Assembly: GCA_017961015.1 (NCBI GenBank)
Contig: JAGCYC010000007.1
Span: 1 to 49,558, forward strand
Direction: 5' to 3'
Source of the DNA: Bacteroidales bacterium
Lineage (GTDB): Bacteria > Bacteroidota > Bacteroidia > Bacteroidales > UBA932
Length of the DNA stretch: 49,558 nucleotides
In this document: piece by piece, positions 38,623 to 49,275 of the stretch
How the letters are laid out: each line of letters begins with the position of its first letter
Position numbering within the stretch: the stretch's first letter is position 1
The notes under the pieces: model-generated
Databases searched by the model: none
What the model was told of the DNA's origin: nothing
Seen by the model: the letters and a program-made list of their open reading frames with translations, nothing else
Translations under genes and position numbers: made by a program

Positions 38623-41600
38623 ATGGCATTAGCAGACATATTGAAAAAAATCTTCGGTAGCAAGAGCGACCGGGATATGAAACAGATACGCCCCATTCTG
38701 GACAAGATACTGGCGGCGTATCCGGAAATAGACGCCCTTTCGAACGACGCCCTGCGTGAGCGCAGCGCCGCCATCAGGCAGAAGATTGCCGATGTGGAAA
38801 AGCCCTTCGAGGACCGTATAGCAGAGATCAAGGCCACGCTGGAGCAGGATATCCCCATCTCCCAGAAGGAGGCTCTCGCCACCGAGAGCGACAAGCTGGT
38901 AAAGGACGAGGACGAGGCCATCGAGGCCGTCCTGAACGAGGTCCTTCCCGAGGCTTTCGCCATTATGAAGAGCACCGCCCGCCGCTTTGCGCAGAACCCC
39001 GTCATCGAGGTTACGGCATCGGCCTTTGACAAGGAGCTGGCGGCTGCCGGAAAGGAATTCGTCCAGATAGAGAGCCGTGACGGCCGCGAGGTGGCCCTGT
39101 GGCAGAACCACTGGATCGCCGGCGGAAACGAGATAACCTGGGATATGGTGCACTACGACGTGCAGCTTATCGGCGGCATAGTCCTGCATCAGGGAAAGAT
39201 TGCCGAAATGGCAACCGGTGAAGGTAAGACCCTGGTTGCAACCCTCCCGGTGTTCCTGAACGCACTTGCCGGAAAGGGCGTGCACGTGGTTACCTTGAAC
39301 GAATACCTGTCCAAGCGTGACTCGGAGTGGATGGGCCCGCTGTACCAGTTCCACGGCCTTAGCGTGGACTGCATAGACAAGCATCAGCCCAACTCCGACG
39401 AGCGCAAGCGCGCCTACAACTGCGACATCAGCTTCGGCACCAACAACGAATTCGGTTTCGACTACCTTAGGGACAATATGGCGGTGCGCCAGAGCGACCT
39501 CGTGCAGCGTAAGCATCACTTCGCCATAGTGGACGAGGTTGACTCCGTTCTCATCGACGATGCCCGTACGCCCCTCATCATTTCCGGTCCTATGGGTAAG
39601 GCCTCCGGCGACGAACAGTTTATGGAGTACCGTCCCTATGTGGAGAACCTGTACAACAAGCAGCGCGCCCTGGTGAACAGCACCCTGAACGAGGCCAAGA
39701 AGGCCATTGCCGCCGGCGACGAAGCCGAGGGCGGGAAGCTCCTGCTCCGCTGCCACAAGGGACTTCCCAAATACCAGCCGCTTATCAAGTTCCTCTCCGA
39801 GCAGGGTATGAAAGCCCTCCTCCAGAAGGCCGAGAACTACTATATGCAGGACAACGAAAGGGAGATGCCGGTAGTTACCGACGAGCTCTATTTCGTAATC
39901 TCCGAGGTGCAGAACACCGTGGATATGACCGATAAGGGCCACGAGGTACTTGCCCAGAGCGTGAACGATCCCAATTTCTTCGTCCTGCCGGATATGGGAA
40001 CTGCAATTGCCGAGATTACCCACGACGCTTCGCTCTCTCCCGCCCAAAAGGCCGAGAAGAAGGATGCCCTGATGGAGGACTTCTCCCTCAAGAGCGAGCG
40101 TGTGCACACTGTTATCCAGCTCCTCAAGGCCTACGCGATGTTCACCAAGGACATCGACTACATCATCGTGGACAACAAGGTGAAGATCGTGGACGAGCAG
40201 ACCGGCCGTATTATGGAGGGCCGCCGCTGGTCGGACGGACTGCACCAGGCCGTGGAAGCCAAGGAGAATGTGAAGGTGGAGGCCGCAACCCAGACTTTCG
40301 CCACCATCACCCTGCAGAACTACTTCAGGATGTACCACAAGCTCTCGGGTATGACGGGTACCGCCGAAACCGAGGCCGGTGAGTTCTGGAGCATCTATAA
40401 GCTTGACGTGGTGGTTATCCCCACCAACCGTCCCGTCATCCGCGACGACCAGGACGATATCGTTTACAAGACCAAGAAGGGCAAGTACAACGCTGTCATC
40501 GAGCGCGTGGTGGAACTCTCCAAGGCCGGACGTCCCGTCCTTGTGGGTACCACCGACGTTGAAACGTCCGAGCTCCTCGCCCGTATGATGAAGCTCCGCG
40601 GCCTGCATCCGAATGTGCTGAACGCCAAGGAGCATGCCCGTGAGGCCGAAATAGTTGCCCAGGCGGGCCAGAGCGGCAAGGTTACCATCGCCACCAATAT
40701 GGCCGGCCGAGGCACGGATATCAAGCTTACTCCCGAAGTTAAGGAGGCCGGCGGACTCGCCATTATCGGCACATCCCGCCACGACAGCCGCCGCGTGGAC
40801 CGTCAGCTCCGAGGCCGTGCCGGCCGTCAGGGAGACCCCGGTTCATCCACTTTCTACATTTCCCTGGAGGACGACCTTATGCGTAAGTTCGGTTCCGAGC
40901 GTATCGCGGGAATCGTGGACCGTATGGGAATAGGTGAGGACGAGGCCCTGGTATCCGGAATGCTCTCCGGCGCTATCGAAACCGCCCAGAAGAAGGTGGA
41001 GGAGAATCACTTTGGCTACCGCAAGCGCACCCTGGAATACGACGATGTGATGAACTATCAGCGCGAGGCCGTATATGCCCGCCGCCGCAATGCCCTTTCC
41101 GGCGAACGCATCGAGATCGATGTCCAGAATATGATGACGGACACCGCCAGCATCCTGACGGACCAGGCGGAGGGTATGTCTTATGCCGATTTCGAGGAAT
41201 TCGTGATAGCCAAGCTCTCGATAGACCTCGGCTTTGACGAGGAGTTCTACAATTCGGCCAAGCCCAACGAGATTGCCCGCAAGCTCACCGAGCATATGCA
41301 GGAGGTCTACACCCGCCGTATGGACACTATGATCCAGAAGGTGAATCCCATCATCAAGACCGTGTACGAGAAGCAGGGTTCGATGTACGAGAACATCGCC
41401 ATCCCCATCTCGGACGGCAAACGCCAGCTGAATCTCTCCGTCAACCTGAAGAAGGCCTACGAGACCGAATCGCGCGAGATTGCCAAGGCCCTCAGCCGCA
41501 GCATCATCCTGTACAACATAGACGAGTACTGGAAGCAGCATCTGCGCGATATGGACGACCTCCGTCAGAGCGTGCAGAACGCCGCCTACGAGCAGAAGGA

Positions 41601-41922
41601 TCCTCTGGTGGTGTACAAGCTGGAAAGCTACAACCTCTTCACCCAGATGCTGGAGCAGCTTAACGAGGCTGTCCTGGCCTTCCTCCTGAGGGCTTTCATT
41701 CCGCTCCGCGACGCTGCCGATGCCCGTGAGGCCCGTCCGGCCCAGCAGCCGCGCCGCGACCTCCAGCAGATGCGCACGAACGATCCTTCGCAGCTGAGCA
41801 CCAACGGCGAGCAGCGCGCCCGCACTCCCATCCGTGTGGACAAGAAGGTGGGCCGCAACGATCCCTGCCCCTGCGGCAGCGGCCTGAAGTACAAGAACTG
41901 TCACGGTAAAGGAATAGTATAG
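38623..41922 (+). CDS. secA: Preprotein translocase ATPase SecA
   Basis: 1099 residues, typical of Bacteroidota, whose SecA is longer than the E. coli protein. Walker A in [18 protein letters not shown]-type box in [16 protein letters not shown], helicase motifs in [12 protein letters not shown] and [15 protein letters not shown]. The C-terminus has the zinc-binding SecB/lipid-contact motif [19 protein letters not shown]. It drives export of unfolded preproteins through SecYEG, including all the signal-peptide-bearing PUL proteins here. It heads an operon with bactofilin, rhaD and a PCMD lipoprotein. Long open frames on the opposite strand are shadows. Confidence 0.99.
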
Positions 41923-43143: not shown

Positions 43144-43896
43144 ATGAAACGGACTTTATACCTTGCTGTCCTGCTGCTTCTCCCCCTGTCGGCTACAGCG
43201 CAGCAGCTCCCCAATATGAGCTTCGACTCGTGGACGCGCTCTTCCGGCGCGTGGTATCCCTATGCTTCCGACGCTCCCCAGTCGGACCGCGTATGGGACA
43301 GCGCCAACCGTGCCCTCCGCCTCCTGGGCATCAACGGCACGGTCCCGGAATACAGTCATCTGGCTGTCCCGGGCGAGGGAAAGGCTGCCTGCAAGATTAC
43401 GAGCCGCAATGTTATCTGGGCTTTCATTGCCGGCAATATCTACACGGGGCGTTTCGGCGGGATCGTGGATTTCAAGGGCGCCCTGCTATACTATGGCGTC
43501 CCTTTCAACGGCCGTCCCAAGTCCCTTTCGGGCTATCTTCACTACATCCCGGGCAAGGTGACTTTTGCCAAGGAACCTTATCTGGAAATGAAGGGTGAAC
43601 CGGATGTGGGCGGTGTGGAGGTTGTCCTTACGGACTGGTCGGAACCGCGATTCGTGAATACCGTGAATGGCAAGTTCGGGGACAAGGATTCGGATCCTAC
43701 AATCATCGGCCGGGGGGTCCTTCAGCTTCGCTACAACACCGGCGGCTACATCCACTTCACCGTCCCCATCGAGTACCGCGACTCCCGCACTCCTTCCTAT
43801 ATCGTCCTCTTCGGCGCTTCAAGTATGCTTGGTGAGTACTTTACCGGCAGCAGCGACAGCGTCCTGTATCTGGACGAACTCCAGTTCAACTATTAG
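43144..43896 (+). CDS. PCMD-domain (putative carbohydrate metabolism) secreted protein
   Basis: 250 residues with signal peptide MKRTLYLAVLLLLPLSATAQQ. The mature start LPNMSFDSWTRSSGAWYPY and later GYLHYIPGKVTFA, GGYIHFTVPIEYRD, PSYIVLFGASSMLGEYFTGSSDSVLYLDELQFNY match the PCMD family of Bacteroidota surface proteins, which have a carbohydrate-binding-like beta-sandwich. Function is not established. Last gene of the secA operon, 5 nt after rhaD. Its stop overlaps that of the convergent small gene (TTAG). Confidence 0.8.
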   Translation: MKRTLYLAVLLLLPLSATAQQLPNMSFDSWTRSSGAWYPYASDAPQSDRVWDSANRALRLLGINGTVPEYSHLAVPGEGKAACKITSRNVIWAFIAGNIYTGRFGGIVDFKGALLYYGVPFNGRPKSLSGYLHYIPGKVTFAKEPYLEMKGEPDVGGVEVVLTDWSEPRFVNTVNGKFGDKDSDPTIIGRGVLQLRYNTGGYIHFTVPIEYRDSRTPSYIVLFGASSMLGEYFTGSSDSVLYLDELQFNY

Positions 43897-44204
43897 AACC
43901 ACTCCACTCCGCTAAGGTCCAGCTCGTTACCGGGCAGGCCCCAGGACGGCGTAAACAGGAAGCGGTAGCCTTTGAGTTCCTTCGGGATCCTGTTCAGAAA
44001 GGCCAGCCGGGGCTCGCCGTAGTCTCCCGAGCTGCCGTACAGGGTAATTGTCCGGGCCTCGTCGTCCTTCAGGTACCAGCCCCCTCCGTGCACCTTCACG
44101 TAGCCCTGCACCAGCTCCCTGTGCTGACCCACCAGGCCATATACGAAAGTCCCCACCAGGGGCTTCCCCGGCTCCGACACCAGTATGAATTTCGGATGGC
44201 TCAT
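43893..44204 (-). CDS. Small hypothetical protein
   Basis: 103 residues from the ATG at 44204. No signal, membrane segment or recognised domain; the sequence is Gly/aromatic-rich (KFILVSEPGKPLVGTFVYGL, HGGGWYLKDD, FTPSWGLPGNELDLSGVEWF) and looks like a compact cytoplasmic fold. I do not recognise it. A strong promoter 17 nt upstream and uniform codon use argue that it is real. The longer upstream frame to 44297 only reads through the palindromic repeat and is rejected. Confidence 0.7.
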   Translation of the reverse strand: MSHPKFILVSEPGKPLVGTFVYGLVGQHRELVQGYVKVHGGGWYLKDDEARTITLYGSSGDYGEPRLAFLNRIPKELKGYRFLFTPSWGLPGNELDLSGVEWF

Positions 44205-44221
44205 AATCCCGTTATTCCTTA

Positions 44222-44251
44222 CAAATATAATTATTAAGGCCGATAAAACAA
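44222..44251 (-). promoter_or_regulatory. Promoter of the small hypothetical gene
   Basis: Minus-strand TTG (44251-44249), 19-nt spacer, TATATTTG (44229-44222). Near-ideal spacing and -7 sequence. Confidence 0.7.
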
Positions 44252-44258
44252 GCCGTTC

Positions 44259-44404
44259 CTTCATCATTGCCGGCCCCTGAGCCTGTCGAAGGGCCAACAG
44301 ACAATCCCCTCGTCATGCCCGACAATACCTTCGTCATTGCCGGCCCCTGAGCCTGTCGAAGGGCCAACAGGCAACCCCTCGTCATGCCCGACCTGATCGG
44401 GCAT
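44259..44404. repeat. Tandem palindromic extragenic repeat plus hairpin
   Basis: Two copies (44259-44323 and 44329-44392) of a unit of about 65 nt, period 70, nearly identical. Each contains CCCTGAGCCTGTCGAAGGG, an interspersed palindrome known from many bacterial genomes, followed by TCGTCATGCCCGAC. The second copy runs into a perfect 8-bp hairpin ATGCCCGA-CCTGA-TCGGGCAT (44384-44404). It is noncoding; short open frames through it are artefacts. Confidence 0.85.
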
Positions 44405-44645
44405 CTCTTTGAATCTCGACATTCCCCTACACTCAAGCCTCCGCTCAGCAGCCAAAAAAGGGACCACCCGTTCGCTTGACGGCAAACTCGTCCTTTTAGC
44501 CGTGGCCTTCGGCCCCGTCTAACGTCCTCAGACAAATGCCGTCATGCCGCTTTGCGTCACCGCTCGCTGCACAGGCCCCCGCACCCTCCCTTTTTTGTCT
44601 ATTCGCTACTGCTCGAGGTAGGGGAATGGCGTCTGAATTAAAGAA
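44405..44645. other. Intergenic stretch without recognisable gene
   Basis: GC-rich sequence with some palindromic pieces (for example GGCCTTCGGCC near 44505) but no open frame with protein-like composition and no promoter or terminator I can support. It marks the edge between the uniform chromosome and the AT-richer accessory tail. Confidence 0.5.
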
Positions 44646-44648
44646 TTA

Positions 44649-44679
44649 TTTGCCGTTTGCGAAAAATGCATTACCTTAG
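44649..44679 (+). promoter_or_regulatory. Promoter of small RNA cassette, copy 1
   Basis: TTTG (44649-44652), 19-nt spacer, TACCTTAG (44672-44679). Transcription is expected to start near 44684. Confidence 0.55.
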
Positions 44680-44683
44680 CAAC

Positions 44684-44783
44684 AGGATTCGTCGAAGAGG
44701 AACTTCGTTTGAAGGGATGACAACCCTCTCAAGGAAACTTGATCCGAGCCTCACTGAAAAGTCGCTACCTGGCGACTTTTTTA
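44684..44783 (+). ncRNA. Duplicated structured RNA / mini-ORF cassette, copy 1
   Basis: About 100 nt bounded by a promoter and an intrinsic terminator. Elements in order: hairpin CGAAG-AGGAA-CTTCG; an ATG at 44717; TCAAG-GAAA-CTTGA, a 5-bp stem with a GNRA loop; and the terminator AAAAGTCGC-loop-GCGACTTTT (44757-44780) followed by T residues. A second copy lies at 47530-47626. From the ATG to the terminator the copies differ at only three positions. I do not recognise the family. The ATG opens a frame MTTLSRKLDPSLTEKSLPG that is the same in both copies, so it may be a leader peptide, a dual-function RNA, or a plain RNA. Confidence 0.65.
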
Positions 44784-44823
44784 CAGAGAAATTTGTTACC
44801 TGTAGTTTTTTGGAGAGAAGTGT

Positions 44824-45252
44824 ATGAAAGGTCTAATCCGAATCATTCTGTTGTTTCTTTTAGCCTGCTCAACAACATCGTGCTTTACATTGATGGCCAT
44901 TGAAGCATCAAATGCAGCTAAAGCAAGGGGGGATGCGTTAGGAAAAAACGAAGCCTCAATGTCGTTGCGAACTTTTCAGCGAGTAGCAGGTTATGCTGCT
45001 TTGGCTACAACTGGCAAAGGAGATGTGGTTTGTGTCATTGCGGATTTTAGAGAGTATTACGACGGACTGGTTATTAGCGGTTATTTCATTAAAAAAGGTA
45101 CTTATTCATACGTCACTACCCGGGGGGCAAATAAGACAGTCTTAGTATACGTTTATAAGCCGCACAAAACTCGCTTGGAGGCATACGCCGATGATTTCAT
45201 TAGAAATCAGGAGCCGATAGTAGTGGACACCCCTTCTAATTATACAATTTAG
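44824..45252 (+). CDS. Small lipoprotein of unknown function
   Basis: 142 residues. Lipoprotein signal MKGLIRIILLFLLACSTTSC with Cys at position 20, then a short Ala-rich helix and a beta-rich C-terminal part (VVCVIADFREYYDGLVISGYF, TVLVYVYKPHKTRLEAYADDF). No recognised domain. Base composition is clearly more AT-rich than the first 44 kb, which suggests acquisition by transfer. It sits inside the direct-repeat RNA cassettes, 40 nt after the terminator of copy 1, so it may depend on read-through or its own unseen promoter. It ends before the intrinsic terminator at 45361. Confidence 0.65.
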   Translation: MKGLIRIILLFLLACSTTSCFTLMAIEASNAAKARGDALGKNEASMSLRTFQRVAGYAALATTGKGDVVCVIADFREYYDGLVISGYFIKKGTYSYVTTRGANKTVLVYVYKPHKTRLEAYADDFIRNQEPIVVDTPSNYTI

Positions 45253-45360
45253 CGTTTTAGATACTATAAGGGCTGGTGATAGTTGGACATCTCTAACGAT
45301 ATAGTTATGGACTAGTTCGGCGTACCGCCCACCTAATAATTTGAAATATTATAATTGCGA

Positions 45361-45392
45361 ACGCCGGTAGAGAATGCTCTATCGGCGTTTTC
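45361..45392 (+). terminator. Rho-independent terminator after the small lipoprotein gene
   Basis: ACGCCGGTAGAG (45361-45372), loop AATG, CTCTATCGGCGT (45377-45388), a 12-bp stem with one G-U pair, then a short T-run. Confidence 0.75.
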
Positions 45393-45404
45393 GTAAAGAT
45401 ATTA

Positions 45405-45436
45405 TTTGTCTTAATTACTTAAAATGCATATCTTTG
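45405..45436 (+). promoter_or_regulatory. Promoter of the nuclease-helicase gene, predicted leaderless
   Basis: TTTG (45405-45408), 20-nt spacer, TATCTTTG (45429-45436), then CGTGG and ATG at 45442. It overlaps the first codons of the longer frame starting at 45424, which is therefore excluded as the usual start. Confidence 0.7.
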
Positions 45437-45441
45437 CGTGG

Positions 45442-47481
45442 ATGCTTCGTTGCTACTATAACTCCACAATACAGGTTTTCCTTGACCGAAAGGACGAGGA
45501 AATATTTGGTGCGCTGTCTAAAGAAAACGCATTCGATCTCACACTGGAGCAGAGGGACGCGTGGCTTGAAGAAATTCAGATAATGAAGCGCGTTCTGCAG
45601 AGCCAAACTGGCCATATCATTTTCGAATACACTATTCCTCGTCTTGGAAAGAGGGTGGATGTTGTACTCCTTATAGACGGCGTTGTCTTCGCCATAGAGT
45701 TCAAAGTGGGTGCAGATGAATATCTTGTCAATGATAAAGAGCAAGTATGGGACTATGCCCTTGACCTTAAGAATTTCCATGAGGAGAGTCGGAATCTGGT
45801 AATTGTTCCTATCCTTGTTGCCACGAAGGCAAAAGCTTACGCCAACAGCTTCCAATGCCAGTACGACGACAAAGTCTACAACCCTCTTTTTGCCAACTCT
45901 CAAACGCTCCATAGTATTATCAGAGACATTCAGGAGCGCGAATCAGTACAACCATCAATTGACGCTCACGAGTGGCTCTATAGCCGATATAATCCCACCC
46001 CGACTATCATTCAAGCTGCCTCTGCCCTCTATATGAATCATAGCGTGGAGGACATAACTAAGCATGAGGCAGATAAAGCTGGAATTGACAGTTGCACAGC
46101 CTTTATTCTGGATGTAATTAAACGATCAAAAGAAAACCATCAGAAGAGCATTTGCTTTGTTACAGGTGTCCCCGGAGCTGGTAAGACCTTAGTTGGTTTG
46201 AACGTGGCCATTCAGCAAGAGCAAGGTGACCTCGCGGTTTATCTTTCCGGAAACGGCCCCTTGGTGAAGGTCCTCACAGAGGCGCTAGCGCGTGATAAGG
46301 TAAAGAAAGAAAAAGAAGCGGGTAAAAAGTGCACAAAGACTGAAGCGGAACGTCAGGTAAGCCGGTTTATCCAAATCATCCACCGTTACCGTGACAATAT
46401 GCTTGCGAAACTCAAGCAGCCAATTGAAGGTCAAACCATAGAAATAGACCCGGCTAAAGTCTCAAAGGCTGCAAAAGCCAATGCGGCTGAGGTGGAAAAC
46501 GTGGCTATTTTTGACGAGGCACAACGCATGTGGGATATGCGTCACCTTAGTGCGTGGCTCGCCCGTAAAAAGGGTCTGGCAGGTTTCCCTATGTCAGAAG
46601 GTGAGTTCCTTATCTGGTCATTGGACCAGCACAAGGACTGGGCAACAATAGTATGTCTTGTTGGGGGAGGTCAGGAAATTAACTCAGGGGAAGGAGGAAT
46701 AGGATTGTGGATAGAGGCGCTGAATAAGACTTTCCCTGGCTGGCAGGTGTACATATCGGACCGCCTCACAGATAAGGAATATGCGGAGGGTAAAGTGGCA
46801 AAGCTACTTGCGAGTAACTCCAACGTCCATATGGAGCGTAATCTGCATCTGGCGGTGTCCCAGCGCTCATATAGGGCAGAGACTCTATCTTTGTTCGTAC
46901 ATCAATTCTTGGATTTGGACATTGCCGCTGCGCGCGCCACTTATGCAGATATTAAAGATCGATATCCAATTATTCTTACCAGGGATTTGAGTAAAGCGAA
47001 GGCTTGGCTGCGTTCACATGCTCGTGGCTCCGAGCGTTACGGAATTCTGGTTTCTTCCAAAGCTTTCCGCCTTAAGCCTTTGGCAATTGATATTCGTTCC
47101 CAGGCCGATATTGTCCCTTGGTTTCTTAACCCCATCACCGATATTCGCTCGTCGCTGTTCCTGGAGGACGTCGCCACAGAGTTCGATATCCAAGGCCTAG
47201 AGTTGGATTGGACTTGCCTGGTATGGGATGGAGACTTCCGATATGACCCGGCGAAGCACAGCTGGCAGCACTTTAATTTTCGTAGTGACCGCTGGCAGAA
47301 CATAAATCAGGCCGAGGGCCGCGCCTACCAGCTAAATGCTTATCGCGTCCTGCTTACACGTGCCCGTCAGGGTATGGTTATCTGCATTCCGGAAGGGGAT
47401 AAGGCAGATTCTACTCGGTTACCTGAGTTCTATGATTCCACTTACCAGTGCTTTAAGCAGTTGGGGGTAGAAGAGATATAG
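45442..47481 (+). CDS. PD-(D/E)XK nuclease fused to DUF2075 superfamily 1-type helicase
   Basis: 679 residues from the ATG at 45442. The N-terminal part has a restriction-nuclease-like core: RVDVVLLIDGVVFAIEFKVG gives the D...ExK triad near residues 70-90. The C-terminal helicase has Walker A VPGAGKTLVGLN (about 240), Walker B VAIFDEAQRMW (about 350), a coupling motif around GGGQEINSGEGG, and motif VI AYRVLLTRARQGMVICIP near the C-terminus. The middle VEDITKHEADKAG links them. Such DUF2075 proteins occur in defence-type islands and probably act on foreign or damaged nucleic acid. AT-richer than its neighbours. Flanked by the two RNA cassettes. It could also be a repair helicase. Confidence 0.82.
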   Translation: MLRCYYNSTIQVFLDRKDEEIFGALSKENAFDLTLEQRDAWLEEIQIMKRVLQSQTGHIIFEYTIPRLGKRVDVVLLIDGVVFAIEFKVGADEYLVNDKEQVWDYALDLKNFHEESRNLVIVPILVATKAKAYANSFQCQYDDKVYNPLFANSQTLHSIIRDIQERESVQPSIDAHEWLYSRYNPTPTIIQAASALYMNHSVEDITKHEADKAGIDSCTAFILDVIKRSKENHQKSICFVTGVPGAGKTLVGLNVAIQQEQGDLAVYLSGNGPLVKVLTEALARDKVKKEKEAGKKCTKTEAERQVSRFIQIIHRYRDNMLAKLKQPIEGQTIEIDPAKVSKAAKANAAEVENVAIFDEAQRMWDMRHLSAWLARKKGLAGFPMSEGEFLIWSLDQHKDWATIVCLVGGGQEINSGEGGIGLWIEALNKTFPGWQVYISDRLTDKEYAEGKVAKLLASNSNVHMERNLHLAVSQRSYRAETLSLFVHQFLDLDIAAARATYADIKDRYPIILTRDLSKAKAWLRSHARGSERYGILVSSKAFRLKPLAIDIRSQADIVPWFLNPITDIRSSLFLEDVATEFDIQGLELDWTCLVWDGDFRYDPAKHSWQHFNFRSDRWQNINQAEGRAYQLNAYRVLLTRARQGMVICIPEGDKADSTRLPEFYDSTYQCFKQLGVEEI

Positions 47482-47495
47482 GTACCTCCTATTTG

Positions 47496-47525
47496 TTTGC
47501 CTCTTGCAAAAATTCATTTCCTTTG
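47496..47525 (+). promoter_or_regulatory. Promoter of small RNA cassette, copy 2
   Basis: TTTG (47496-47499; another at 47492), 18-nt spacer, TTCCTTTG (47518-47525). The promoter sequence differs from copy 1 but occupies the same relative position. Confidence 0.5.
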
Positions 47526-47529
47526 CAGT

Positions 47530-47626
47530 GGAATCGTCGCAGGGAATTCGCGAGGAAAGGATGACAACCCTCTCAAGGAAACTTGATCCTAGCCTCACTG
47601 AAAAGTCTCTACCTGGCGGCTTTTAT
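47530..47626 (+). ncRNA. Duplicated structured RNA / mini-ORF cassette, copy 2
   Basis: Same arrangement as 44684-44783: a 5' hairpin (here TCGC...GCGA, different bases from copy 1 at the same place), ATG at 47561, the GNRA-capped stem, and a terminator-like stem AAAAGTC...GGCTTTT with one G-U pair, followed by T-rich sequence. Between the copies the 5' hairpin changes on both arms, which suggests selection for structure. Two of the three downstream differences are synonymous in the MTTLSRKLDPSLTEKSLPG frame. It lies 48 nt after the helicase stop. Confidence 0.65.
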
Positions 47627-47698
47627 TTTTTTGCCTCGGATAATTTGTATAACCCATTGACCACTGTGGATTCTCCAAATCGAGAGTAATCTCGTTAT

Positions 47699-47730
47699 GC
47701 ATCATTTTCGTAAGATCACGAAAATGATGC
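47699..47730. repeat. 13-bp perfect hairpin
   Basis: GCATCATTTTCGT (47699-47711), loop of six, ACGAAAATGATGC (47718-47730). It lies just beyond the dinD remnant. No T-run, so it is not a clear terminator; palindromes of this kind often mark operators of toxin-antitoxin or HTH genes in Bacteroidota. Here no such gene is adjacent. Confidence 0.6.
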
Positions 47731-47747: not shown

Positions 47748-48205
47748 TTATTTCTTTTTCGGGAGTTTTGAACTAGTCTTCTCTATCTTCTTTTCCTCAG
47801 AGGCAACACGACGCTCTAGTTTCTTGATATCCTCTGCCGGAGGAAGCTCTTCTGGGCGGATTCCTCGCTTCCCAAGCATTTCTCGGACGCTCTGATTATT
47901 TTGCATATGCTCGCGGGTTATTGCCGGTTCGCCAAACAGATTCTTTCCTTCCGCGTTATAATTTTTCATCTCTGTGGCAAGGTTTTTCGCGGCTATAGTC
48001 AAAGTGGGGAAGAAATTGGCAAGAGGGCGACTGTCTTTTACGCCAAGGCGCTTTTTCATGTCTTCCGTTGTATGCCCTCCATAGAGAACAAGTGAGCATA
48101 AAGTCCTGGACTTCGCGTAAAGATCCGCCACCTAGCTGTACCATTTTCGTAACCCCACGAAAATGGTCATCAACAATGATTCCCTTGGTTTCACGGCAAA
48201 CGCGT
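47748..48205 (-). pseudogene. Remnant of dinD-like gene (DNA-damage-inducible protein D)
   Basis: Two pieces in different frames. Upstream frame (about 48205-48091): ETKGIIVDDHFRGVTKMV then QLGGGSLREVQDFMLT, matching the middle of DinD. Downstream frame (about 48093-47748): SLVLYGGHTTEDMKKRLG, LANFFPTLTIAAKNLATEM and NNQSVREMLGKRGIRPEELP then KKLERR, matching its C-terminus. The N-terminal domain is missing because the DUF1016 gene abuts, and the stretch between MLT and SLVLYGG that DinD normally has (RYACYLIA...) is deleted out of frame near 48090. The 127-codon open frame therefore is not a functional gene, although its end could still be translated from the GTG at 48131. Confidence 0.7.
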
Positions 48206-48207
48206 AT

Positions 48208-48227
48208 AGTGATGCGGACGCATCACT
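48208..48227. repeat. 9-bp hairpin at the end of the DUF1016 gene
   Basis: AGTGATGCG-GA-CGCATCACT, a perfect stem with a 2-nt loop that straddles the DUF1016 stop codon. It shares GCGGACGCA with the palindromic 23-mer found in the gene and its leader. It could protect the 3' end. Confidence 0.5.
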
Positions 48228-49275
48228 CCCCGCCCTTCTCCTGCTGCTGACGCTCGTAATCCAGACGAGCCTCTTCCACTTCATCCACCAGCTGTTCCGT
48301 AGAAGGAAGATAAAGCTCATACTTGCTGGCGATAATCGTCTTGTTATCCTCCGGCAGCGTCATCTTCACAGCCGTGTCATTCTTCTCCGTGCAAAGCAGA
48401 ATGCCAATGGTCGGATTTTCATCTGGAAGCTTCTCTTCACGGTCAAAATAATTCACATACATCTGCAACTGCCCCAGATCCTGATGTGTCGCCTTGTGCG
48501 TTTTCAAGTCAATGAGGACAAAACATCTCAGCAGCCGATTATAGAACACCAAATCAACCTTGTACTCATCATCCTCGATAAGGAATCTCTTCTGACGTTC
48601 TTTAAACAAAAAGCCATTGCCAAGCTCCATAATAAACTCCTGCAGATGGTCGATAAGGGCCATCTCCAGGTCGTTTTCATAGTAATGAGGCTTCTGTTCC
48701 AGACCCAGGAACTCCAGATACATCGGATCCTTGACTACCTCAGATGGCGAAGAGGGTATCCGCTCCTTGCGGGCCATGGCCAGCACTGCCTTCTTGTCAT
48801 TGCTTTTCAGCAGGCGCTCATACAGCAGAGAATTCTTCTGCCGTTCCAATTCCCTGGCTGTCCAGAAATTCTTGGCGGCCTCCAGTTCATAATACTCTCG
48901 TTTATCCGGGTCGGAAATGCTGATAAGGAGCTTATACTGTGTCCAATTGAATTGCGACCGCAGTGCGGACGCATTTGGATATGTGCGGTAAAACTGACGA
49001 GCGCGTTCCAACTGCCTCTTCGTAAACCCGCTGCCAAACTCCGGCTCAAGGCGTGAGGCGAGCCCGGCAATCAGATATGTCCCGTAATCTGCCCTGTTCC
49101 TGCCACGCTGCTCTTCCTCCAGAATGCGGTATCCCAATTTCCAGTACATCACTACACGCGCAGCATCAACACTGCGGATGGCATTATTCTTAGCCTCAAG
49201 AATGATTTGTCTGCTATCCTCGAAGAATGTGTTCTCAGAATCGGAGTATACCACTTTGTTTTCCATAACGCTCAT
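48223..49275 (-). CDS. DUF1016/YhcG-family PD-(D/E)XK nuclease
   Basis: 350 residues, the usual length. The N-terminal DUF1016 region (ARVVMYWKLGYRILEEEQRG, YGTYLIAGLASRLEPEFGSGFTKRQLERARQFYRTYP, SQFNWTQYKLLISI) binds DNA. The C-terminal nuclease core is KVDLVFYNRLLRCFVLIDLKTHKA, which gives the D...D-x-K arrangement of the family, then DLGQLQMYVNYFD and PTIGILLCTEKND. Relatives occur with restriction-modification and mobile islands. Two ATGs are possible (49275, 49266). A 23-nt segment of this gene is repeated exactly in its own leader. It is AT-richer than the main chromosome. Confidence 0.9.
   Translation of the reverse strand: MSVMENKVVYSDSENTFFEDSRQIILEAKNNAIRSVDAARVVMYWKLGYRILEEEQRGRNRADYGTYLIAGLASRLEPEFGSGFTKRQLERARQFYRTYPNASALRSQFNWTQYKLLISISDPDKREYYELEAAKNFWTARELERQKNSLLYERLLKSNDKKAVLAMARKERIPSSPSEVVKDPMYLEFLGLEQKPHYYENDLEMALIDHLQEFIMELGNGFLFKERQKRFLIEDDEYKVDLVFYNRLLRCFVLIDLKTHKATHQDLGQLQMYVNYFDREEKLPDENPTIGILLCTEKNDTAVKMTLPEDNKTIIASKYELYLPSTEQLVDEVEEARLDYERQQQEKGGE
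48951..48973. repeat. 23-nt palindromic repeat, copy inside DUF1016 CDS
   Basis: A 23-nt sequence beginning ATTGCGACCGC and ending GCGGACGCA, identical to 49294-49316. Here it encodes NASALRSQ, a conserved stretch of DUF1016, so this copy is probably the original. Confidence 0.8.

Follow-up and report, generated by a model that had tools for sequence, protein, structure and literature searches.

The DNA studied here, hereafter the window, is an entire contig of 49,558 bases (JAGCYC010000007.1) from the assembly GCA_017961015.1 of a Bacteroidales bacterium, a genome that is 77% complete. Near its right end two cassettes on the same strand, w1 and w2, lie on either side of a helicase gene (Table 1). 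As a preliminary description of this DNA had noted, each is composed of a promoter, a GNRA-capped stem and a terminator; the promoters are of the Bacteroidota type and the cap is GAAA. The two match each other far above chance (E 8e-25) and are the sole copies in this genome by DNA search, the next matches having E values of 0.2 or worse. Our analysis of relatives in other genomes indicates that w1 and w2 belong to a real and apparently undescribed family of RNA genes, called here type 1, whose regular partner is a gene for a protein with an LPD3 domain, placed tail to tail with the RNA.

The type-1 RNA is a gene of about 100 nt. A DNA search found relatives in seven of 149 genomes of the host's family, the window's genome included (genomes and loci carry our numbers, prefixed G and L). 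Two of the seven were weak, and of these G064 was judged a chance match and G080 was later confirmed by covariance model. Applied to 398 genomes of the family, this model (R1), built from eight copies including w1 and w2, detected the RNA at 74 places in 56 of them, and 41 of the 56 carriers have a single copy. From other families of the order three genomes matched, G573 strongly and G779 and G603 weakly, in a sample of 393 that also included some genomes of the host's own family, among them that of the window. A loose pattern search returned 119 stretches across many phyla, mostly chance; L103, L105 and L110 were tested with the model and L103 alone matched. With the queries used, no relatives were found in collections of viral contigs, plasmids and phages. 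The preliminary description had also considered that the core might match a known Rfam family, and none in Rfam 15 matched the window at its gathering score; at E values up to 10, positions 44600-47700 gave two matches, both far under their cut-offs.

The promoter consensus stated for Bacteroidota in PMC7366714 is TAnnTTTG at -7 with TTTG at about -33. We found TAnnTTTG in 60 of 75 distinct stretches upstream of type-1 RNAs, versus 0-3 of 73 in control windows, and 50 of the 75 also have TTG 18-22 nt ahead of it (0-1 of 73 in controls). On the 3' side, a run of T follows the RNA in 64 of 72 parsed copies. The predicted fold is a three-way junction formed by a long-range closing helix (P1), a helix with the loop AUGACAA or close variants (P2) and a variable helix (P3). 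Over 60 matches, 54 of them distinct, 96.9% of the cells in the model helices are paired, double-sided changes occupy 56 cells versus 10.2 ± 2.5 in shuffles, and all five P3 pairs covary; this alignment leans towards the model, since it was fitted to it. A coding reading of the conserved ATGACAACC was rejected: the ATG and TTG frames in the core span 6-79 codons and the length differences in P3 break the frame, therefore the core encodes no conserved peptide.

The closing helix, NGGG-(bulge)-UUCG with CGAG-CCCN, was spotted by eye and counted on 62 distinct copies, in which 488 of 496 cells are paired with 20 double changes (e.g. AGGG/CCCU, CGGG/CCCG, GGAG/CUCC). The outermost pair is present in 57 of the 62 copies versus 46.4 ± 1.7 after shuffling, and none of 5000 shuffles was as high, on the understanding that P1 was discovered on the same sequences as were counted and that shuffles do not preserve relatedness. 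The count started from 78 hits, of which 6 unparsed for P1 were left out and the remainder are identical to the 62; two rows are still shifted (AGGA/CCTC), which lowers the count. The inner four P1 pairs and P2 (AGGG-AUGACAA-CCCU) say little because they are nearly invariant, and single-sequence folding (z of -2.05 for w1 and -1.04 for w2) is weak evidence alone. Covariation thus supports the long-range P1, and not the 5' hairpin that the preliminary description had seen as differing on both arms yet still folding, which is not conserved. Inspection by eye suggests a possible pseudoknot of GUCR, upstream of P1, with YGAC in the P2 loop; it was left uncounted.

The difference between w1 and w2 in their 5' halves, earlier taken for covariation, is mosaicism. 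The 5' half of w2 is nearest to copies of the AGGG/CCCU subclass (37 of 38 bases) and its 3' half to copies of the GAGG/CCUC subclass (60 of 64), which accounts for the impression of a shared 3' part and a differing 5' part. Homologous recombination between RNA copies is a plausible origin of such a mosaic. w2 retains 6 of the 8 P1 pairs and its P2 is weakened (AAGG/CCCT).

To describe the partner, all frames around the 78 type-1 hits were searched with a profile of the LPD3-domain protein that had been noted beside several copies. Within 1 kb downstream of the RNA we found LPD3 in 37 of 77 cases, every one on the opposite strand and 32 of them near full length (the other 5 are fragments), versus 0 of 76 in the 1 kb upstream; between 1 and 2 kb it was found in 2 of 71 cases downstream and 1 of 70 upstream. 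The proteins have a length of about 140 aa. PF18798 (LPD3) matches 24 of 25 of them at E values up to 5, the best being 5.7e-10, and scores above its curated cut-off in 26 of 55 genomes searched. LPD3 matches occur in 75 of the 398 genomes of the host's family, and outside the family a broken LPD3 gene accompanies the type-1 RNA in G779 and a C-terminal LPD3 remnant is found in G573. The alignment has 17 invariant columns, including R19, E57, T69, N96, Q97 and Y127, with no histidine among them. Other Pfam families matched at most two of the 25 proteins each at E values up to 5, none consistently, and neither a ToxN model nor the Abi_2 (AbiD/F) model was among them. LPD3 was not found in viral contigs, and one LPD3 protein searched against plasmids and one longer LPD3 protein searched against phages found nothing.

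LPD3 genes that lack a type-1 RNA carry a different conserved RNA in the same convergent place. This type-2 RNA is dissimilar to type 1 and is marked by GUCCCCGCC and, further on, GGGGCA. Its covariance model found it at 94 places in 68 of the 398 family genomes and gave no match at w1 or w2; twelve loci searched in Rfam 15 yielded two matches, both tRNA. The model holds five pairs only, and the P1 of type 2, counted afterwards on the alignment, has 87.5% of cells paired with double changes in three of four pairs. Because two of five whole-structure measures do not exceed shuffles (double-change pairs, 54 of 500 as high; further pair types, 497 of 500), the type-2 fold is only indicated. A third short RNA was recognized by eye beside broken LPD3 genes in G070 and G104; in G104 it consists of two tandem hairpins built on an exact 29-nt repeat, whereas types 1 and 2 are single units. 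Some RNAs appear to be composite, with a type-1 core followed within a few bases by a type-2 match and without a type-1 terminator between them (L211:8192-8400, L253:7593-7737, L258:7923-8128 and L262:8037-8263). In L270:2640-2816 the start of the type-2 RNA is within a few bases of where a tRNA gene ends, and no promoter can be seen separating the two; in L274 a tRNA also lies just upstream. Several LPD3 proteins of the type-2 group (L269, L270, L271, L273, L274) are longer, about 230 aa, and their extra N-terminal part is helix-turn-helix-like by eye, which suggests autoregulation.

The linkage was also counted from the side of the protein, using 79 LPD3 matches of at least 100 bits and RNAs within 100 nt. 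A convergent RNA lies beside 73 of the 79 genes, 29 of type 1 and 44 of type 2, and none lies on the same strand; the median distance from the end of the LPD3 profile match to the RNA is 35-36 nt. One gene of the 79 is flanked by a further RNA on the side away from the convergent one. Of the six exceptions, three (G086, G341, G390) break off 13-31 nt short of a contig end. A fourth (G179) is a truncated gene with the 3' end of a type-1 RNA visible by eye on the convergent side, and in G146 a convergent promoter can be made out by eye together with a different kind of hairpin. Among weaker matches, which are fragments, 12 of 20 have a convergent RNA. In a sample of 178 genomes of the order, G497 was the sole genome of another family with LPD3; it has three such genes, the strongest of which is convergent with a type-2 RNA (57 bits).

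The loss of the two partners is unequal. LPD3 lies within 250 nt of 34 of 74 type-1 and 51 of 94 type-2 RNAs, fragments included, so that 83 of 168 RNAs are without detected LPD3, a count that is an upper bound because some of them are at contig ends and some have short C-terminal LPD3 remnants by eye. With the contig-end cases removed, Fisher's test on the asymmetry gives p 6e-14, which is a guide only since the loci are not independent. All eight P1 pairs are kept in 34 of 36 parsed type-1 RNAs without LPD3. Two pairs of loci show what such a loss looks like: L199 compared with L198 keeps the RNA region (195 nt, 98% identical) and L267 compared with L202 does likewise (168 nt, 97% identical), and in both LPD3 is missing and the homology resumes beyond it.

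Table 1. Features at the right end of the window and the basis of each assignment.
Feature	Position	Strand	Basis or remark
w1 promoter, TTTG 44649-44652 and TACCTTAG 44672-44679	44649..44679	+	one base off TAnnTTTG
w1 type-1 RNA core	44685..44752	+	R1 covariance model, 82.0 bits; w1 among model-building sequences
w1 P1	44697-44700/44704-44707 with 44745-44752	+	pair counts
w1 P2	44713-44716 with 44724-44727	+	pair counts
w1 P3	44729-44733 with 44738-44742	+	pair counts
w1 terminator, AAAAGTCGC-TACCTG-GCGACTTTT	44757..44782	+	sequence, fold
Putative lipoprotein (name from the preliminary description), 142 aa	44824..45252	+	without Pfam or PADLOC family
Schlafen-group-3/DUF2075 helicase, candidate defence protein PDC-S41	45424..47481	+	PF09848 3.4e-69; PADLOC PDC-S41 8.3e-267, model positions 1-653 of 657
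w2 promoter, TTTG 47496-47499 and TTCCTTTG 47518-47525	47496..47525	+	one base off consensus
w2 type-1 RNA core, mosaic	47530..47596	+	R1 covariance model, 80.9 bits; w2 also among model-building sequences
w2 terminator	47601..47632	+	sequence
C-terminal part of a protein of candidate defence family PDC-S13	47748..48131	-	PADLOC, model positions 171-277 of 281
DUF1016/YhcG PDDEXK nuclease, candidate defence family PDC-S02	48223..49275	-	Pfam, PADLOC; within low-GC stretch

In the window itself, the GC content drops from about 0.57 to 0.43-0.50 near 44.5 kb and remains low up to the contig end at 49558. The AT-rich segment is hence not the 2.7-kb block bounded by both copies that had been described, as it begins near 44.5 kb and continues past w2. 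LPD3 was not found in the window's genome, 77% complete, in either of two genome-wide searches; the position that LPD3 has in paired loci is occupied here by the putative lipoprotein of 142 aa, but on the RNA's own strand. The DUF2075 helicase between the copies had earlier been called a nuclease-helicase; its supposed N-terminal nuclease part was not identified by Pfam. The PDC-S13 fragment is presumably DinD-like. Between the last gene of the left flank and the low-GC stretch lies a repeat-like intergenic stretch (43893-44535) whose false frames give similar peptides (e.g. LRQAQGPAM, STGSGAGND). The gene secA (38623-41922 in the window) ends about 1-3 kb upstream of a type-1 RNA here and in L177 and L204, that is, in three genomes of two genera, and this secA-side position is a possible island hotspot.

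The neighbours of the RNA elsewhere indicate a setting in defence islands. We listed 173 proteins of at least 150 aa from 46 loci, up to four per locus and all encoded no more than 4 kb from a type-1 RNA, and 118 were picked from them by hand, at most three per locus, omitting the window's own, those of L177 and some false-looking frames. At E 1e-8 these 118 matched 262 PADLOC models, many of them versions of one family, versus no PADLOC match for 23 control proteins taken from 0.7-43 kb of the window; the contrast is indicative only, since the two groups of proteins come from different sources and the selection was made unblinded. Among the matches listed, the most frequent families were methyltransferases, PDC-S41, mad2 and PbeA, with 3-4 proteins each. 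Pfam showed restriction, Mrr, HipA-type and other conflict genes in L017, L018 and L020 and ordinary housekeeping genes near the RNA in L019. In G079 a TROVE/Ro60 protein (L020:12186-13724) adjoins the module, and this stretch also encodes VWA, WYL and HIRAN proteins.

One earlier suggestion for w1 and w2 was a family of small RNAs with a tie to a defence gene: the family is real and defence genes are among its neighbours, but the regular partner is LPD3 and not the DUF2075 helicase. Over 47 loci, LPD3 recurs in 23, one cluster of short frames in 6 (mostly across the RNA itself) and other clusters in at most four. The helicase family (cluster c9), whose presence beside other copies had been raised as a question, is found in 4 of the 47 loci. 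It always shares the strand of the RNA and lies downstream of it, at 0.7 kb from w1, 0.4 kb from the type-1 RNA of L197, 0.7 kb from the type-1 RNA of L190 (LPD3 lies in the interval) and about 1.2 kb from a type-2 RNA with LPD3 in L198. These four cases, from loci chosen for the RNA, make no rule, but a looser tie between RNA and helicase is possible. Overall, the earlier observation is partly confirmed and its interpretation partly supported.

On this sequence evidence we consider it rather probable that w1 and w2 are orphan RNAs of a module in which an RNA antidote is paired with an LPD3 effector, following the logic of type III toxin-antitoxin systems with a convergent layout and a different protein. 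The full module would consist of a structured RNA of about 100 nt with its own promoter and a tail-to-tail gene for an LPD3 protein of about 140 aa, located in islands of what are very probably Bacteroidales, and the two genes appear to use one common bidirectional terminator. The RNA would bind the LPD3 protein and hold it inactive; LPD3 would be a growth-arresting effector that is freed when transcription fails, for instance during phage infection. Copies without LPD3, w1 and w2 included, would be antidotes left behind or kept after the loss of the effector. The layout, the near absence of LPD3 without RNA, the survival of RNA without LPD3 and the setting all fit this reading. By our own criterion for toxin-antitoxin logic in general, an effector should seldom occur without its RNA, and the 73 of 79 LPD3 genes with an RNA agree with this.

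Several points weigh against an antidote. Dissimilar RNAs serving one protein family would be unusual for it, and the RNA of type III systems lies upstream of the toxin gene on the same strand, with a terminator between the two, and is co-transcribed, whereas here it has its own promoter and is convergent at all 73 paired LPD3 genes. No known toxin family is matched by LPD3, in which no active site is recognised either; searches of the PDB with LPD3 gave two chance matches only, and PADLOC two single weak matches. The LPD3 gene of G307 has no RNA match on its 3' side, only a weak type-2 match (17 bits, E 0.008) beyond its 5' end, and beside the other two LPD3-like genes of G497 (47 and 34 bits) neither RNA type was matched. 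Unequal gene loss has many causes: orphan RNAs could serve some independent function, and some of them may be false (contig ends, short remnants). In the window, both promoters deviate by one base from the consensus and w2 has lost pairs in P1 and P2, for which reasons w2 may be dead.

Of the alternatives, the one that survives best, although we regard it as unlikely, is that LPD3 and the RNA form a working ribonucleoprotein acting jointly against phage, with the RNA as guide, scaffold or sensor and not as antidote. The near-obligate linkage of LPD3 to RNA, the defence genes among the neighbours and the strong conservation of the loop AUGACAA would all suit such a particle. Necessary partners should vanish together, yet about half of the RNAs are without detected LPD3 and still well folded, and RNAs of dissimilar sequence serve a single protein family. 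Less probable again is an independent regulator, a trans-acting small RNA for which LPD3 is a target or a frequent neighbour: the 83 copies without detected LPD3 agree with it, whereas the fixed convergent geometry (a median of 35-36 nt at 73 of 79 genes, none on the same strand) and the second, dissimilar RNA in the same place argue against it.

The repeats had also been proposed as attachment-type sites, produced by insertion of the helicase segment into an RNA gene, and we find this very improbable. Two direct copies do flank the segment, w2 is a mosaic of the kind that recombination between copies would yield, and contig ends within 5 kb are somewhat commoner than expected (31 of 65 positions tested, of the 74, versus 21.1). 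The copies nevertheless keep their promoter, covarying helices and terminator, and most carriers (41 of 56) have a single copy. Since no protein cluster besides LPD3 and the short frames recurs in more than 4 of the 47 loci, no common integrase was seen, not all neighbours being annotated. Finally, a Y RNA for a Ro60/TROVE protein, brought to mind by the TROVE protein 0.55 kb upstream of the RNA in G079, was rejected as next to impossible, as TROVE matched in one of seven genomes tested, six of them RNA carriers, and the window has no Rfam match.

Returning to the antidote module, a bolder version can be put forward tentatively, with the balance somewhat against it: a new class of RNA-protein conflict module, in which solo LPD3 is almost obligately coupled, tail to tail, to interchangeable and dissimilar antidote RNAs of at least two and probably three kinds, and in which genomes retain spare RNAs that make them immune to LPD3 modules arriving from outside. 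The near-obligate RNA partner offers a testable role for LPD3. It would also explain what is found in the window, where w1 and w2 would be spare parts of an LPD3-RNA module, and it extends the known pairings of RNA and defence protein by a convergent layout and by RNA families that have no match in Rfam. In the titles and abstract openings listed for the literature on LPD3, polyvalent proteins and toxin-antitoxin systems, with subscription papers and preprints outside the scope, no description of the LPD3-RNA pairing was found.

The LPD domains have been placed among conflict proteins, with precise functions described as elusive as of 2017 (PMC5512222). In that account LPD3 is a domain of polyvalent proteins, the large proteins of phages and conjugative elements, whereas the LPD3 proteins described here, which have an RNA as partner, are solo or carry an additional N-terminal part. 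The closest known logic is that of type III toxin-antitoxin systems (ToxIN, CptIN, TenpIN), in which a small protein is paired with a structured non-coding RNA that binds and thereby neutralises it; their features are taken from the accounts in PMC8860590, for ToxIN as the classical case, and PMC12373285. Similarly, LPD3 seldom occurs without an RNA, whereas RNAs also occur by themselves. As to repeats, one RNA of the third type, beside a broken LPD3 gene, has two tandem hairpins, and types 1 and 2 are single units and not repeat arrays. The protein differs, being LPD3, without a ToxN match in Pfam. In the AbiF-RCd22 system of Clostridioides difficile, as presented in PMC12373285, an RNA of 100-130 nt that has a promoter and a terminator binds a toxic protein directly and so neutralises it, both in cis and in trans; the system offers a model for how orphan RNA copies such as w1 and w2 could act. 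By the same account RCd22 lies upstream on the same strand, is co-transcribed and belongs to an Abi_2/AbiD/F protein, whereas LPD3 matches no Abi_2 model. Because its RNA is convergent and its protein different, we file the LPD3 module neither as type III nor as a member of AbiF-RCd22.

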